Shown here piece after piece: positions 4,167 to 10,703 of a stretch of 37,003 nt of DNA. The translations under genes were made by a program, and so were the position numbers. Numbering within the stretch: position 1 is the stretch's first letter; each line of letters opens with the position of its first letter. This DNA is from an uncultured Neglectibacter sp. (GTDB taxonomy: Bacteria; Bacillota; Clostridia; Oscillospirales; Acutalibacteraceae), in contig CAJFEW010000044.1 in the NCBI GenBank assembly GCA_904374805.1, forward strand, positions 1 through 37,003, in the 5' to 3' direction. The notes under the pieces are model-generated. The model saw only the letters and a program-made list of their open reading frames with translations. It did no database searches and was not told where the DNA came from.

Positions 4167-6236
4167 TTACTCCCCGGCCTCGGCTTTGGCCTCTTCAATC
4201 ACCTTCTGAGCCACATTCTGGGGGGCCTCTTCATAGCGGGCAAACTCAAAGGTAAAGCTGCCCCGGCCCTGGGTGCACTGGCGAATGAAGGTGGTGAAGT
4301 CGTGCATCTCCGCCATGGGCACGTCGGCTTCCACGGTCTGCCGGCCCTCTCCGGCAGGCTCCATGCCCAGCACACGGCCCCGGCGCTTGTTCACCTCGCC
4401 CAGCACGTCGCCCATGTTGGCGTCCGGCACCGTGGCCTTCAGGTGGCCAATGGGCTCTAAGAGCACCGGGCTGGCCTGGGGCATGCCCGCCTTATAGGCC
4501 AAGGCCGCCGCCATCTTAAAGGACATTTCCGAAGAGTCCACCGGGTGATAGCTGCCGTCGTACAGCACAGCGGAAAGGCCTACCACCGGGTACCCGGCCA
4601 GGGGGCCCTTTTGGATGCACTCCCGCAGGCCCTTTTCCACCGCCGGGAAGAAGCCCTTGGGTACAGCGCCGCCGACCACCCGCTCGCCAAATTCCAGGCC
4701 GTCGCTGTCGCAGGGGGAGAACTCAATCCACACATCGCCGAACTGGCCGTGGCCGCCGGTCTGCTTCTTGTGCCGGCCCTGGACCTGCACGGTCTTGCGG
4801 ATGGTCTCCCGATAGGGAACCTTGGGCTTTTTCAAGGTGACGTCCACCCCGAACTTGGCCTTCAGCTTGGAAACGGCCACATCCAGGTGCTGCTCGCCCA
4901 AGCCGCTGATCAGCATCTCATGGGTCTCGTTGTCGGTGCTAAACTGCAGCGTGGGATCCTCCTCGGAAAGCCGCAGCATGCCCTGGGCAATTTTGTCCTC
5001 CTCGCCCTTTTTGGCGGGGACCAACGCCATGCGCAGGGTGGGGGTGGGGTAGTCCACGCCCTCCAAAGCCACCTTCCGGGTGGGGGAGCACAGGGTGTCC
5101 CCGGTGTTGGTGGCGGTCAGCTTGGGAATGGCGCCAATATCCCCGGCGCCTATGTATTTTACATCCACCTGCTTCTTGCCCACCATCATCACGGTCTTGC
5201 CCACCCGCTCCGGATTGCCGGTGCGCATGTTCACCAGCTGGGAGTCGGTGGCGATTTTGCCGGAGATCACCTTCACATAGGACAGCTTGCCAATGAAGGG
5301 GTCCGCCACGGTTTTGAACACCAGCGCCGCCGCAGCCCCGTCCTCGTTGACGGAGAGCTCCACCGGGTTGCCGTCCACATCCAGGCCCATCTCGCCGGCC
5401 TTCTCCTCGGCGGAGGGGGCCAGCCAGCACAGGCCGTCCAAAAACTGCTCCATGCCCCGCATGAGCAGGGCGTCCCCGCAGAACACCGGGGTGATGGCGC
5501 CGGACTTGACGCCTTTGCTCACGCCCACAATGACCTCTTCCGGGGTGAAGGGCTCCCCGGCGAAGTATTTTTCAAACAGCTCGTCGTCGGTCTCGGCCAC
5601 AGCCTCGTAAATGGCCGTGCGCAGCCCTTCCAGCCGGTCGCCCATGTCGGGCATGGGCACTGCCACCGGCTTGCCGCCGGAATAGTCGTAGGCCTTGTAC
5701 TCCAGCAAGTTGATGTAAATGTTGGCCTGGCCGTCCTGAATAAAGGGCACCACCACCGGGCACACCGAGGGGCCAAAGCTGGCTTTCAGGTCTTCAAATA
5801 CCCGGTAGAACCGGGCGCTCTCGTCGCACAGGCCGTTGACGAAAAAGATTTTCGCCAGGCCGTTTTTCTCCGCGGCGGCAAAGGCCTTTTCCGTGCCCAC
5901 AGCCACCCCGTCTTTGCCGGAGACCACAATCAGCGCCGTATCCGCAGCCCGCATGGCCTCCATCATGCCGCCCTCAAAGTCAAACAGGCCCGGGGCGTCC
6001 AACAGATTGATCTTTTTATTCTTCCACTCCAAGGGGGCCACCGCCGCGGAAATGGAGGCTTTGCGGCGGATCTCCTCCGGGTCGTAGTCGCACACGGTGT
6101 TGCCGTCGCCCACCTTGCCCCGCCGGTCGGAGACTCCGGCCAGATAGAGCATGGCTTCCGCCAGGGAGGTCTTTCCGGCGCCTCCATGGCCGGCCACTGC
6201 CAAATTGATGATGTTTTTCGCCTGATATTGGTTCAT
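4167..6236 (-). CDS. EF-G-like translational GTPase with altered G motifs
   Basis: A 689-residue protein with the full EF-G domain order: GTPase domain (about 8-270), beta-barrel domain II (about 300-380), domain III (LRMALVPAKKGEEDKIAQGM onward), domain IV (about 470-590) and domain V to the end. G1 is intact (GHGGAGKT, 16-23). G3 reads DAPGLFDF (80-87) where canonical EF-G has DTPGHVDF, so the GTPase-activating His is Leu. G4 reads NGLCDE (134-139) where NKMD is expected, losing the Lys of the guanine-specificity motif. These mark it as a member of the EF-G-like paralogue group (often named FusA2 or EF-G2) and not the housekeeping factor, which is normally encoded with rpsL and rpsG. Function of the group in translocation or stress is uncertain. 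ATG 6236 follows AAGGAG. It is monocistronic, with a promoter at 6335-6363 and a terminator at 4097-4134. Confidence 0.85.
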   Translation of the reverse strand: MNQYQAKNIINLAVAGHGGAGKTSLAEAMLYLAGVSDRRGKVGDGNTVCDYDPEEIRRKASISAAVAPLEWKNKKINLLDAPGLFDFEGGMMEAMRAADTALIVVSGKDGVAVGTEKAFAAAEKNGLAKIFFVNGLCDESARFYRVFEDLKASFGPSVCPVVVPFIQDGQANIYINLLEYKAYDYSGGKPVAVPMPDMGDRLEGLRTAIYEAVAETDDELFEKYFAGEPFTPEEVIVGVSKGVKSGAITPVFCGDALLMRGMEQFLDGLCWLAPSAEEKAGEMGLDVDGNPVELSVNEDGAAAALVFKTVADPFIGKLSYVKVISGKIATDSQLVNMRTGNPERVGKTVMMVGKKQVDVKYIGAGDIGAIPKLTATNTGDTLCSPTRKVALEGVDYPTPTLRMALVPAKKGEEDKIAQGMLRLSEEDPTLQFSTDNETHEMLISGLGEQHLDVAVSKLKAKFGVDVTLKKPKVPYRETIRKTVQVQGRHKKQTGGHGQFGDVWIEFSPCDSDGLEFGERVVGGAVPKGFFPAVEKGLRECIQKGPLAGYPVVGLSAVLYDGSYHPVDSSEMSFKMAAALAYKAGMPQASPVLLEPIGHLKATVPDANMGDVLGEVNKRRGRVLGMEPAGEGRQTVEADVPMAEMHDFTTFIRQCTQGRGSFTFEFARYEEAPQNVAQKVIEEAKAEAGE

Positions 6237-6363: not shown

Positions 6364-6493
6364 GGCAAAAAATCAAAAATACTTAAATTTTCCCCCAGTA
6401 TTTTTTGCTTTTTAGGCTTTTCCTCCAAAAATTTGAGGCCTTTCTCCCCCCTGGCGAACCCAGCTTTCTCCAGGGTTTCGGGCCTGTTTGGGC

Positions 6494-6525
6494 AGCAAAA
6501 AGGCCGCCGCTTTCGCGGCAGCCTT
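6494..6525 (-). terminator. Terminator of the rlmB - P-type-like operon
   Basis: Stem AAGGCCGCCGC (6500-6510) / GCGGCAGCCTT (6515-6525) with one mismatch and a 4-nt loop. On the minus strand it is followed by TTTTTG. It lies about 25 bp past the stop of the gene ending at 6549. Confidence 0.75.
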
Positions 6526-6548
6526 ACAAGTCGCTCATGGTTCCTGCT

Positions 6549-9500
6549 TTATTTGCGCAGCCGGGGCAGCAACAGCACCACCGCCACCCAGAACAGCTGG
6601 AACAGGAAGAGAATCAGGGAGGAAAGCTGACCCATGGCCCCAAAGCAAGCCAGGAAAGCCACCAGCACAAAGCCCAGCACCACAGCGGCGGTCTGCACCG
6701 CCACCACCATGTGCACCGTGCGCTTCTCCTCCACGCAGGCGGAGAGCACGCTCAGCAGGGACTCCATGCGGCCCTTGGTGGCCACGGCGGCGTCGGCCCG
6801 CGGAATGGGCTTCTCCACCAGCTTTTTGTACTCGTCTCCCAAACGGGCGTCCAAAATGCCCACAGAGGCAGTGTCCACCCCGAACAGCCGGGACACCAGC
6901 TGGGCGGTTACGTTGGGATCCGTGGTGCGGACAATCACGCTGACGCCGCTGTCCTCCAGGCGCTGGAGCTCATTCTTCCGGCGGCGGTCTGCCCCATAGG
7001 TGAGCACCAGCAGGGCAGCCACCTGGCCGTCCACGCCAATGTACACCACCTGCTGGCCGCCGGAGGCGTACTGAGACTCCTCCTCCCGGGCGGGCACCTG
7101 CATGCGCCGGTTGATCAGCAGAGACCGGTTGCCAATGCAGATGGTCTTGCCGTCCACCCGGCCCACAATGCCCTGGCGGTCCTCATAGGTCCAATCCCGC
7201 ACCTGGGGCAGGAACTCTTCGTTTTCACTGATCACCTGGTCGAACACGCCGGACAGGGGGCCGCCCACCTCTCTCATCAGGGCGGAGGCGGACATAATGG
7301 CCTCTTCGGCAGCGTCCCGGCTGCCAAAGGTCTTGATCCCATTGAGCACCACAGTGCCCCGGGGGAACAGCTCTCCCGCATCTACCAGCACGGCGTTCAC
7401 GGCGCCCAGGCGCTCCACGCCCTCATAGCCCACCACCATGGCGCCGGCCCGGCGGGCGGTGCGGCACAGGCGGCTGATGGGCAGGTTCACAGACAGCAGG
7501 TTGGAAACCGCCACACAGGCACAGCTGGCCGCCGCAAAGGCGCTGATGGCCGTGGGCACGCTGCGGGTGAGCAGCAGGCAGGCAATGCACAGCACCAAGG
7601 AGGCGATCAGCCCCAAAGGCGCCAGCAGCTGGGAGGTGGACTCCGAGGGATCCGGCCGGTAGGAAAGCTCCAAGAAACGCTTCAAAAATCCCGTCTTGCA
7701 CTGGTAGGCGATCACGGGCCGCTCGGCCACGCAATCCTTGGCCATCTTCAAGGCGGTGTTGTAGTCGTCGTAAGTGCGCACGCTGTACTTCTCCTCCCGG
7801 GAGGTGACAAACCGGAAGTTGGAATGGATGCGCCGGAGCATGGTCAGCTTGCCGGCGGCGTTGGCAAACAGAATGGCCGAGAGCACCACTGCGTACAGGT
7901 GCAGGTTCCCGTCCACCAGGTCGTCCTGGAAGAAGGCGGAAGCCACTGCCTGCACCGCCACAGCCACGGCAGCCACCGCTGCGGCGCTGTCCGAGTTGGC
8001 GTTAAAGGCCAGCAGGGCTTTCAGACCGTTGCCCACGGTCCGGTAACACACGCCCACGGACACCGCCAGGAAGACCAGCGTCAGCACCACATACACCACC
8101 GGCAAAGAGCCGGGTTCCACCGCGCCGGCAAACTGGCCGCTGAAAATCAAGTTGACCAAGGCCAGCAGCACCGTGCACACGCCGGTGATCAGCAGGCGCA
8201 GGGTAAGCTCCCGCATTTCGCCCCGCAGCTCGTGGGAGATAGACTGGGCGTCCTCGGGGCCGGTGTAGTCGTCGATAGACTCGCCCGGGTCCCCGGTGGG
8301 CACAGGAGCCTGCTGGGCCTGGGGATCCTCCAGCTTTTTGTTGCGCACCCGGCGCTTGGGAGTTCGTTTGCGCTCCCGGGCCTGTTGGGCCTGGCGCAGT
8401 TCCTCGCTCTCAGAGAGCAGCGCCCCCTGGAGCACCTCCGCATGCAGCACATGGGTGGGCACGTTCCGGGAACGGTACTCGTAAATGCTGGAGATGGTGG
8501 GCGGCTCTGGCTGCTGGCGCTGGGGCCGCACAGGCTGGGCCACCACCGTGGGTTCGTCCACCGGGGCAGCGGCCTGGGACCGGGTCCCCTGCTGGGGAGC
8601 GGCGTGCCGGCCGGCCGGCTGTCCCGCCGGGGCTTGGGCAGCCCGAGTGTGCTGGAGAGGCGTTTGGGGCACAGCGGCCCGCTCCGAGGCGGCCGCAGGC
8701 CGGGAACTCCCGCTCCGGGCGGCAGGCGCTGTCTCCCCAACGGGGGAGGGCAGCGGCGCTGCCGCCGGCTCTGCCGTCTCCTCCAAAGCCTCGGGGCTCG
8801 CCGCCCTCTGAACAGGCTCCGGTCGGGCCGGGGACTGGAGCACGCGCTCCACCGCCTCTTCGCTGACAGGCTGGTCCTCCTGCACCCGCTGCAGCTCTAC
8901 CGTGTCGTTGAGCACATTGAGCTTGATCTCCATGGTCTGGTCCGTGGAGGTCTCCAGCATGGCTTTTTGAATCTCCGGCATGTCCTCCTGCAGGCGTTTG
9001 CCCCCTTCCACACCGATGCCGTGCTGGCGGGCGTAGGGATCCGCCGCAAAAGAGGTGACCGGCATGGGAGCCACCACCCCGAACTCGTCGGCGATCTCCT
9101 GCTCGTCCACCCCGGCGGTCTGCACCGCCTCCGCCACCCGGCGGCGGCGTTCCCGCTGCAGCCGCTGGAAGTTCTGCTCCACCTCTTCGTCGATGGCTTT
9201 TTTGGAATCGTCAAACAGGGTCTTGTAGGTCTCTGCCTCGCTGGTCAGCTCCCCGGCAGAGTCGTATCCCATCCGGTATTCGTCAATGGGTTTGAGCTGA
9301 ATGCCATAGTACAGGTCGTCCTCGTTCTCGTCGTACTCCGGCACCTTTTTCTTCCGGCCAAACAGACCCCTTTTCTTTTTCTTCTTCCGGCCGGCAGGTT
9401 CCTCCGCCGGAGGGGCAGGCTCTTCCACCCTCTCCTGCGCCACGGGCAGCTCCACGCTGCCGGTGGCAAAGGCGTTCAGGTCCTCTTGGGCCCCGTCCGG

Positions 9501-9743
9501 CTGGGCTGGGGCGGCCTCCTGCCGGGGGGCGGGCGCCGAACCCTGCCTTTGGATAGGCTGCCCCTCCTGGGGGCGGGCGGGCCGCACCGGAGCAGCCCCT
9601 TCCCGGGGGGATGGCGCCGGATTCTGCCCCTGGGCAGGCTGTGTCCCTTGGGCAGACCGGGCAGCACGCTGGGCCGCCTGGGCCTCTCGCTGGGCCCGTT
9701 GTTCTGCCAAAATATCTTCCACTGTGAATTCCTTGTTGTCCAT
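6549..9743 (-). CDS. P-type-ATPase-like membrane protein without catalytic motifs (putative pseudoenzyme)
   Basis: 1064 residues, ATG 9743 behind AAGGAGG. Residues 1-115 are Ala/Gln/Pro-rich and disordered. A lysine cluster GRKKKKKRGLFGRKKK (118-133) follows, then a charged helical part (about 150-305), a second disordered stretch (305-500) and, from about 513, a membrane region. Hydrophobic segments: about 515-540, 547-567, 585-605, 615-632, 706-726, 732-752, and two after 1008. The stretch LPISRL-(about 20)-GYEGVERLGAVNAVLVDAGELFP (754-794) aligns with P-type ATPase M4 and phosphorylation site, but DKTGTLT is replaced by DAGELFP (Asp788). GKTICIGNRSLLINRR (865-880) matches the N-domain G-x-GN-x-LM pattern. 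VRTTDPNVTAQLVSRLFGV (938-956) sits where TGDN-x-x-TA belongs, and the GDGxNDxPAL hinge is absent. It is therefore unlikely to be phosphorylated or to pump ions; a sensing or scaffold role is inference. It follows rlmB after 16 bp. Confidence 0.75.
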   Translation of the reverse strand: MDNKEFTVEDILAEQRAQREAQAAQRAARSAQGTQPAQGQNPAPSPREGAAPVRPARPQEGQPIQRQGSAPAPRQEAAPAQPDGAQEDLNAFATGSVELPVAQERVEEPAPPAEEPAGRKKKKKRGLFGRKKKVPEYDENEDDLYYGIQLKPIDEYRMGYDSAGELTSEAETYKTLFDDSKKAIDEEVEQNFQRLQRERRRRVAEAVQTAGVDEQEIADEFGVVAPMPVTSFAADPYARQHGIGVEGGKRLQEDMPEIQKAMLETSTDQTMEIKLNVLNDTVELQRVQEDQPVSEEAVERVLQSPARPEPVQRAASPEALEETAEPAAAPLPSPVGETAPAARSGSSRPAAASERAAVPQTPLQHTRAAQAPAGQPAGRHAAPQQGTRSQAAAPVDEPTVVAQPVRPQRQQPEPPTISSIYEYRSRNVPTHVLHAEVLQGALLSESEELRQAQQARERKRTPKRRVRNKKLEDPQAQQAPVPTGDPGESIDDYTGPEDAQSISHELRGEMRELTLRLLITGVCTVLLALVNLIFSGQFAGAVEPGSLPVVYVVLTLVFLAVSVGVCYRTVGNGLKALLAFNANSDSAAAVAAVAVAVQAVASAFFQDDLVDGNLHLYAVVLSAILFANAAGKLTMLRRIHSNFRFVTSREEKYSVRTYDDYNTALKMAKDCVAERPVIAYQCKTGFLKRFLELSYRPDPSESTSQLLAPLGLIASLVLCIACLLLTRSVPTAISAFAAASCACVAVSNLLSVNLPISRLCRTARRAGAMVVGYEGVERLGAVNAVLVDAGELFPRGTVVLNGIKTFGSRDAAEEAIMSASALMREVGGPLSGVFDQVISENEEFLPQVRDWTYEDRQGIVGRVDGKTICIGNRSLLINRRMQVPAREEESQYASGGQQVVYIGVDGQVAALLVLTYGADRRRKNELQRLEDSGVSVIVRTTDPNVTAQLVSRLFGVDTASVGILDARLGDEYKKLVEKPIPRADAAVATKGRMESLLSVLSACVEEKRTVHMVVAVQTAAVVLGFVLVAFLACFGAMGQLSSLILFLFQLFWVAVVLLLPRLRK

Positions 9744-9759
9744 AGGCGGAATCCTCCTT

Positions 9760-10578
9760 TTACGGATTGATCGCTTCCAAACCGCTTCGCTGGCGGGCCA
9801 CTTCCGTGCAGAGGATGCCCGCCGCCACCGAGGCGTTCAGGGAATTGATGCGCCCCCGCAAAGGCAGGGACACCACAAAGTCGGCCTTTTCCTTCACCAG
9901 GCGGCTGACCCCACTGCCCTCCGAACCAATCACCAGGGCCACCGGCCCGGTAAAGTCCGTCTGGCACCAGGGGCTGCCGTCCATGTCCGCCGCGTAAATC
10001 CAAAGGCCGCGCGCTTTCAGGTCTTCCAGCAAGGTGGGCAGGTTTTTCACCCGGGCCACGGGCAGGTGTTCCACCGCCCCAGCCGAGGCCTTGCCCACCG
10101 CCCAGGTCAGCCCCACGCTGCGCCGTTGGGGCACAATCACCCCATGGGCCCCGGCACACTCCGCCGAGCGGAGCACCGCCCCCAGGTTGTGGGGATCCTC
10201 CAGGCCGTCGCAGATCACAAAGAAGGGGGGCTCCTGCCGGTCTTGGGCCCGCTGGAACAGTTCCTCCAAAGAGGCGTATGCCTTCACCGCCCCCACGGCC
10301 ACCACCCCCTGGTGGTGGGTTCCGCCGCACAGGTGCTGCAGCTTCACAGGGTCCGCCTCTTTGACGGGCACCCCTTTCTCACGGGCCAGGGCCAGCACCC
10401 CTTGCAGGGCGCCTCGCCCCTCTCCCCGCTGCACATACAGGCTGTCCAGGGGCCTGCCGGCCCGCAGAGCCTCCAGCACGGCGTTGCGCCCGGCTACAAT
10501 GTCTGCGCCCCGGGGCTGCTCCCCCTGGGGGGCTCCCCGGCGCTTCTCCCTGTTTTTTTCCACAATCGGCCACCTCAT
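9760..10578 (-). CDS. rlmB: 23S rRNA (guanosine-2251-2'-O)-methyltransferase, TrmH/SpoU family
   Basis: About 272 residues. After a basic N-terminus comes the substrate-binding domain starting DIVAGRNAVLEALRAGRPLD. The SPOUT catalytic domain then shows motif 1 GLEDPHNLGAVLRSAECAGA (Asn-Leu-Gly with the essential Arg), motif 2 ALVIGSEGSGVSRLV, and motif 3 SLPLRGRINSLNASVAAGI. All three trefoil-knot motifs are intact. The enzyme uses S-adenosylmethionine to methylate the ribose of a peptidyl-transferase-loop G in 23S rRNA. The start is uncertain: ATG 10578 has a weak ribosome binding site, while GTG 10563 has GAGGTGG seven bases upstream; an in-frame start at 10656 is unlikely. A promoter is visible at 10675-10703. 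The downstream P-type-like gene begins 16 bp after its stop, so the two are probably co-transcribed. Confidence 0.88.
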   Translation of the reverse strand: MRWPIVEKNREKRRGAPQGEQPRGADIVAGRNAVLEALRAGRPLDSLYVQRGEGRGALQGVLALAREKGVPVKEADPVKLQHLCGGTHHQGVVAVGAVKAYASLEELFQRAQDRQEPPFFVICDGLEDPHNLGAVLRSAECAGAHGVIVPQRRSVGLTWAVGKASAGAVEHLPVARVKNLPTLLEDLKARGLWIYAADMDGSPWCQTDFTGPVALVIGSEGSGVSRLVKEKADFVVSLPLRGRINSLNASVAAGILCTEVARQRSGLEAINP

Positions 10579-10674
10579 TTTAGGTCTCGCCGGCAAGGCG
10601 CTTCCCGCCGGCGGAACTGGGCAATTTTCCCGGCTCCCAGGCCCAAAAGGGCGCAAGGAGCCATAGTTTTTCTG

Positions 10675-10703
10675 ATTATAGCATAGTTCTCAAAAAATCT
10701 CAA
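10675..10703 (-). promoter_or_regulatory. Sigma-A promoter of the rlmB operon
   Basis: Minus strand TTGAGA (10703-10698), 17-bp spacer, TATAAT (10680-10675) with extended TGC. The leader is about 90 nt and contains GC-rich inverted repeats (GGCAAGGCGCTTCCCGCC region). Confidence 0.75.

Follow-up and report, generated by a model that had tools for sequence, protein, structure and literature searches.

Few pumps have been studied as thoroughly as the P-type ATPases. For the human protein TMEM94, a published account describes TGES as absent and a phosphorylation cycle as not evidenced in six structures (PMC12134183). To that extent it is an earlier example of a P-type fold that lacks the cycle, an example which is itself disputed, since the protein is named an endoplasmic reticulum Mg2+ ATPase in a second report (PMC13322241). 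Here, we describe a lineage-wide, presumably inactive bacterial family of this fold, with conserved residues of its own and with no dedicated model in Pfam or NCBIfam. Its reference member lies in a stretch of 37,003 nucleotides (nt), analysed as a whole and called the window below, from an uncultured Neglectibacter sp. (contig CAJFEW010000044.1), where an ATG-started frame of 1064 codons with zero internal stops occupies positions 6549-9743 of the minus strand. A first-pass annotation, made from the letters of the window and naming no strand, had described the product as P-type-ATPase-like, lacking all motifs of the phosphorylation cycle and belonging to no recognised family. We refer to it as the pseudo-pump. 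No account of such a bacterial family was found among titles and abstract openings in the open-licence literature.

The absence of the catalytic motifs is a property of the family as a whole. Its members were aligned with MAFFT in 156 rows (the window, 26 loci of the same genus and 129 others; of 114 further family genomes, 14 were skipped in locus retrieval). Motif positions were taken from this alignment and matched to pump motifs through a phmmer alignment with LpCopA, and the roles of those motifs are taken by us to be the ones they have in pumps. DAGELFP and TTDPN stand in the window where they had been reported, and no close homologue with a canonical DKTG exists among the 156 rows, in which neither DKTG itself nor the Lys or the Gly of DKTGT occurs. 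The aligned Gly of TGD is likewise found in 0/156 rows, although the Asp is present in 150; the string TGD occurs somewhere in 14 rows, and near the site only in one locus (L119), where it follows DPN, off the aligned place. GDGxND is matched by pattern in none of the 156, with no GDG within positions 960-1005 of any row. The CPC metal site is missing from all 156 rows across positions 734-764 of M4 (a single CPx or xPC is seen in six), as are the SEHP His and the pump Asp that aligns with Tyr916, and the actuator loop of the window holds no TGE. As a control, intact pumps of the same order, chosen as rows by their DKTGT, display TGE, TGD and GDGxND without exception (8/8 P1B, 6/6 P2).

In place of the pump motifs, the family has fixed residues of its own. 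Asp is found at the nucleophile position 788 in 57 rows and at position 789, which is Ala in the window, in 91. Kept or newly fixed are Asp/Glu791 (143 of 156), Phe/Tyr793 (149), Pro794 (125), Gly858 (153), Gly871 (155), Tyr916 (143), Asp942 (150) and Asn944 (128). The conservation at 791, 793 and 794 and at 942 and 944 means that the site carries its own consensus, x-D-x-[DE]-[LIV]-[FY]-P and DPN. In the N-domain nucleotide site, where SEHP, GxG and GN presumably act, the aligned first Gly is present in 45 rows, the second in 153, Gly871 in nearly all and Asn872 in 56.

The P-type layout proposed for the C-terminal part is borne out by sequence and structure alike. The M3-M4-P-N sequence resembles P1B pumps far above chance (NCBIfam CopA, 2.3e-15; LpCopA, 4.1e-15), and comparison of the core with P1B pump structures gave a match, with a root-mean-square deviation of 2.1 over 115 residues of the N-domain. 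The core, whose helices we label MA, MB and M1-M6 by our own assignment, has a P-type fold with the P1B membrane plan, and the fold of the P-domain is retained. Searched against Pfam-A, the full protein gave no family at E<=10, and its kinship was traced instead through NCBIfam, sequences of PDB entries and structure. None of 33 core members matched a Pfam-A family at E<=0.001, and the curated NCBIfam P1B cut-offs were missed (55.8 bits against 1316, and 46.2 against 346.25). The N-domain is of normal size (123 residues, 120-129 in P1B pumps). The actuator loop measures 36-71 residues (median 54; n=152, the rows of the 156 kept by a length filter), compared with 111 in 8/8 P1B pumps, and the P+N region, with a family median of 211 residues, is 33-41 shorter than the 244-252 of eight P1B pumps. 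For the M4 proline there are two readings of equivalence: phmmer pairs P755 with the Pro of ATP in CPCALGLATP, and an ungapped count from the following Gly makes position 745 the CPC proline, a position that is Pro in 102/156 rows and Ala in the window.

In a tree of 52 rows, which took in 31 family rows, these form a single clade (100/100), separate from 8 P1B rows and from the P2 rows. Because none of the 156 rows is intact, the simplest reading is that the catalytic motifs were lost once, at the base of the clade. Within the genus, the core is under purifying selection, with ratios of nonsynonymous to synonymous substitution rates (dN/dS) of 0.135-0.33 in nine comparisons with the window and of 0.11-0.13 in three further same-genus pairs. 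A local lesion or pseudogene was rejected on these grounds, namely the 0/156 intact rows, the dN/dS of 0.11-0.33 and the open frame of the window.

The gene is near-universal in a large order of gut bacteria, which we take to be the Oscillospirales of GTDB; NCBI taxonomy places Neglectibacter in the Oscillospiraceae, and the close relatives that bear names are Neglectibacter, 'Neglecta' and Acutalibacter. Presence and linkage were counted in 147 evenly sampled genomes of the order, of which 137 have a strong match (best piece at least 248 bits) and ten only weaker, pump-like ones. All seven members of the order in a class sample of 196 genomes carry the gene, and none of the 189 genomes outside the order exceeds 141 bits, the matches in the rows listed falling only between about positions 202 and 511 of 574. 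In a phylum sample of 149 genomes only two pass 1e-45, both of them members of the order.

Its distribution is closely tied to that of rlmB, which directly precedes it in the window, as had been stated, the rlmB frame ending 16 nt before the pseudo-pump gene; rlmB may actually begin at a codon near 10575. This linkage is conserved across the order. RlmB scores above its cut-off in 137/147 genomes, both genes are present in 135, and in 128 of these the pseudo-pump gene lies directly downstream of rlmB, sharing its contig and its strand. In the other seven the genes are on different contigs, which may reflect contig breaks or true separation; in four of these genomes (G037, G091, G102, G175) rlmB lies <1 kb from a contig end on its downstream side. 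The pseudo-pump alone is found in two genomes, rlmB alone in two and neither in eight. Of the genomes with rlmB alone, G063 has, directly behind rlmB, a match to the beginning of the tail, its core matches being weaker and pump-like, and in G040 rlmB is 232 bases from a contig end on the pseudo-pump side. In the fetched pieces, both genes occur in 149/156 loci, on the same strand in 149/149; in 127 of the 149 the gap between them measures -62 to 60 nt (median 17). The gap exceeds 200 nt in three loci, one of which (L030) has a split pseudo-pump frame. The seven loci without rlmB comprise five of the 27 genus loci, with short flanks or contig ends, one at a contig start (L034) and L055.

The first 500 or so residues had been called disordered, which holds for most of residues 1-489 and fails for a predicted N-terminal helix (8-31) and several weaker ones, the longest at 181-209 and 435-459. 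In the full-length model, 367 residues have a predicted local distance difference test (pLDDT) value below 50, every one of them within 1-489, and blocks 11-30 reach 82-89. The hydrophobic fraction of the tail is 0.18, compared with 0.40 in the core, and a KKKKK cluster lies at about 9369-9389. The N-terminal helix carries the motif FTVEDILAE. Of 117 non-genus loci, 39 have a loose form of the pattern [FY]S[LIV][DE][DE]ILxE among their first 140 residues (0.1 expected from shuffles) and 25 have the strict form (0.0 expected); counted were those of the 129 non-genus loci with a tail of at least 60 residues, with start codons as given rather than curated. A strict DNA pattern of the motif has a single match in its own genome, inside the pseudo-pump gene; in 12 further genomes it matches once each in five, at the pseudo-pump gene, and not at all in the other seven. 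The idea of an adaptor common to many proteins is therefore not supported, since the pattern matches the pseudo-pump gene alone; relaxed copies may exist elsewhere in the genomes. The helix resembles a dedicated docking element of the pseudo-pump.

Regarding the gene itself, a plus-strand open reading frame (ORF) at 6405-9770 (1121 amino acids) spans the whole gene and was rejected as a real gene, since the order-wide homology sits in the minus-strand frame; it is probably an antisense shadow of G+C-rich codon use. Separately, in L030 (G058) an in-frame TGA near 2497-2499 divides the family protein into two frames, which may reflect an assembly error, a pseudogene or recoding. The promoter-like site upstream of rlmB matches 11 of 12 consensus positions (3 such sites in the region, 1.0 expected) and terminator-like sites number 14 in the region (8.3 expected). 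With the promoter-like site before rlmB and a terminator-like hairpin after the pseudo-pump gene, the window looks like it holds a two-gene transcript, as judged from consensus matches.

Around this pair, an Rfam scan of the window gave no family at gathering score, and the next gene downstream encodes an EF-G-like GTPase. In 98 non-genus loci a gene on the same strand follows at no more than 300 nt. With clusters named after single members, EF-G-like is the commonest (28), followed by YebC (8), Era (7) and a B12 radical SAM protein (4), the remaining 51 falling into 36 clusters. The era cluster follows the pseudo-pump in L053, L099, L113, L115, L116, L131 and L145. Both Era and Obg, whose gene stands before the pseudo-pump in G037, are ribosome-assembly GTPases. 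These neighbours at most hint at translation.

The family-wide motif loss, the kept fold and the purifying selection speak for the suggestion, already made in the first-pass annotation, of a pseudo-ATPase turned sensor or scaffold, and they argue strongly against an ordinary pump. On balance we think it probable, with some reserve, that the protein is a P1B-type pump skeleton without catalysis, which became a membrane-embedded receptor or scaffold before the order radiated. Such a protein would neither pump nor hydrolyse ATP, and its helix body would serve as a membrane anchor. A cytosolic partner would be captured by the N-terminal helix, behind which the genus has a basic patch, and the rebuilt x-D-x-[DE]-[LIV]-[FY]-P/DPN pocket may, together with the N-domain, bind a ligand or partner that sets the conformation. 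Less surely, the partner might come from ribosome maturation or translation, given that co-expression of the gene with rlmB is probable and that its neighbours are often EF-G-like, YebC or Era. A more elaborate version seems improbable to us: an order-defining hub between cell membrane and ribosome maturation, whose helix tethers a translation factor or RlmB-bearing ribosomal particles, whose DxD and DPN pocket senses Mg2+ or nucleotide and so switches the tether, and which in families f19 and f12 makes up a heteromeric pseudo-pump together with a second, separately deactivated P2-type pump.

Several observations weigh against the receptor or scaffold reading. Nine of the 156 rows have the string TGE in the actuator loop, in scattered contexts, and the conserved acids at 789 and 791 together with Asp942 would be compatible with a remodelled active site. 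In 78 of the 117 loci counted, the tail motif was not detected. We infer the link to the ribosome from gene neighbourhood; in L055 (G037) the gene lies behind obg, with rlmB on another contig, and neighbours besides rlmB vary, with 40 downstream clusters in 98 loci. Finally, the figure for the joint distribution of the two genes (Fisher 4.4e-10) ignores relatedness and assembly gaps that take out the whole locus. The joint absence in eight genomes (G061, G069, G099, G104, G126, G140, G164, G169) may partly reflect such gaps; four of the eight genomes are <80% complete. For G099 and G169 a real joint loss is favoured, because they represent two species of a single genus.

A rival view is that the protein is an envelope or division scaffold without a functional link to rlmB, and that the linkage is operon hitch-hiking. 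The changing neighbours agree with it, as does the dispensability of rlmB in E. coli. We nevertheless consider it rather unlikely, as the linkage spans about two dozen families, besides the joint absence, and under hitch-hiking alone one would expect more frequent breaks.

A regulatory subunit, that is, an inactive heteromer partner of a catalytically active P-type ATPase, is a still weaker candidate. It draws on the P2-type P-ATPase-like ORF that stands upstream of rlmB in family f19 and, within f12, in G047, represented by eight loci of an upstream cluster plus L044 and L178 (about 0.8 kb upstream), and the copy of G165 (L178) is intact in all four motifs (TGES, DKTGT, TGD, GDGVNDAP). A P2 profile run over the 156 loci, many with short flanks that leave distant pumps outside view, matched only 10 further ORFs (that of L049 being a locus-edge fragment). 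Moreover, eight of nine aligned upstream ORFs are themselves degenerate in the motifs covered (L148 and L136 are partial), and the intact P1B pumps are encoded elsewhere, without a tie to the pseudo-pump gene. The P-site of the L111 ORF, FDAGELVE, resembles VDAGELFP of the window. In the tree, six degenerate P2-like rows group together (94/85, not starred) beside intact P2 pumps, and two pump classes seem to have lost catalysis separately at one locus. That the pseudo-pump is still an enzyme, with a DxD-like 789/791 box and Asp942 as a remodelled haloacid dehalogenase-type site (a phosphatase or unusual phosphotransferase), fits the retained P-domain fold and the frequencies of Asp789, Asp/Glu791, Asp942 and Asn944, and is very improbable given Ala at 789 in the window, the universal absence of GDGxND, the shortened P+N region and the halved actuator.

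Table 1. Features of the window and, where a locus is named, of related loci.
Feature	Position	Strand	Remarks
Pseudo-P1B-ATPase gene	6549..9743	-	1064 amino acids; sequence matches and structure
P1B-ATPase-like core, residues 490-1064	6552..8276	-	reduced A, P and N domains
DAGELFP, residues 788-794, replacing DKTGTLT	7362..7382	-	
TTDPN, residues 940-944, replacing TGDxx	6912..6926	-	Asp942 kept in 150/156
N-domain, ~residues 796-917, full size	6993..7358	-	
Shrunken actuator-domain loop, residues 646-699	7647..7808	-	loop-length comparison
N-terminal tail, residues 1-489, mostly disordered	8277..9743	-	pLDDT mostly under 50
Helix motif FTVEDILAE, residues 6-14	9702..9728	-	motif class across loci
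rlmB, 23S rRNA (G2251-2'-O)-methyltransferase	9760..10656	-	TIGR00186 226.7 bits, cut-off 160.15, for 9763-10575
Sigma-70-like promoter (TTGAGA-17-TATAAT, TG before -10), 5' of rlmB	10675..10703	-	consensus only
Terminator-like hairpins and T run	6503..6522	-	26 nt past stop codon; consensus scan only
EF-G-like GTPase (PRK12740.1-5 subfamily)	4167..6236	-	863 bits, cut-off 583; 312 nt downstream, next gene
P2-like upstream ORF, degenerate	L048:8551-10761		
P2-like upstream ORF, degenerate	L111:5368-7578		
P2-like upstream ORF, degenerate	L122:3144-5354		
P2-like upstream ORF, degenerate	L135:5595-8051		
P2-like upstream ORF, degenerate	L144:2618-5068		
P2-like upstream ORF, degenerate	L044:1970-4411		
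P2-like upstream ORF, intact relative	L178:2202-4820		

As a near-universal gene of its order, the pseudo-pump bears on a possible core membrane function and on a possible membrane partner for rRNA modification, and the family offers a natural experiment on the reuse of a pump fold after loss of the phosphorylation cycle. Among known systems, it is RlmB (TIGR00186) that is the near-constant upstream partner in the genome, an unrelated methyltransferase associated through gene order only. With P1B pumps (CopA, LpCopA 3rfu/4bbj; ZntA) the pseudo-pump shares the membrane plan, the M4-P-N order, the N-domain fold and sequence kinship. In contrast to them, it is without DKTGT, the aligned TGD, GDGxND, the SEHP His and CPC in M4, its actuator loop measures 54 rather than 111 residues, and it adds a disordered tail of ~490 residues. 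TMEM94/ERMA is alike in its P-type fold; the human protein is eukaryotic and has ten membrane helices, whereas the family described here is without DKTG in every examined row and is nearest to P1B pumps.
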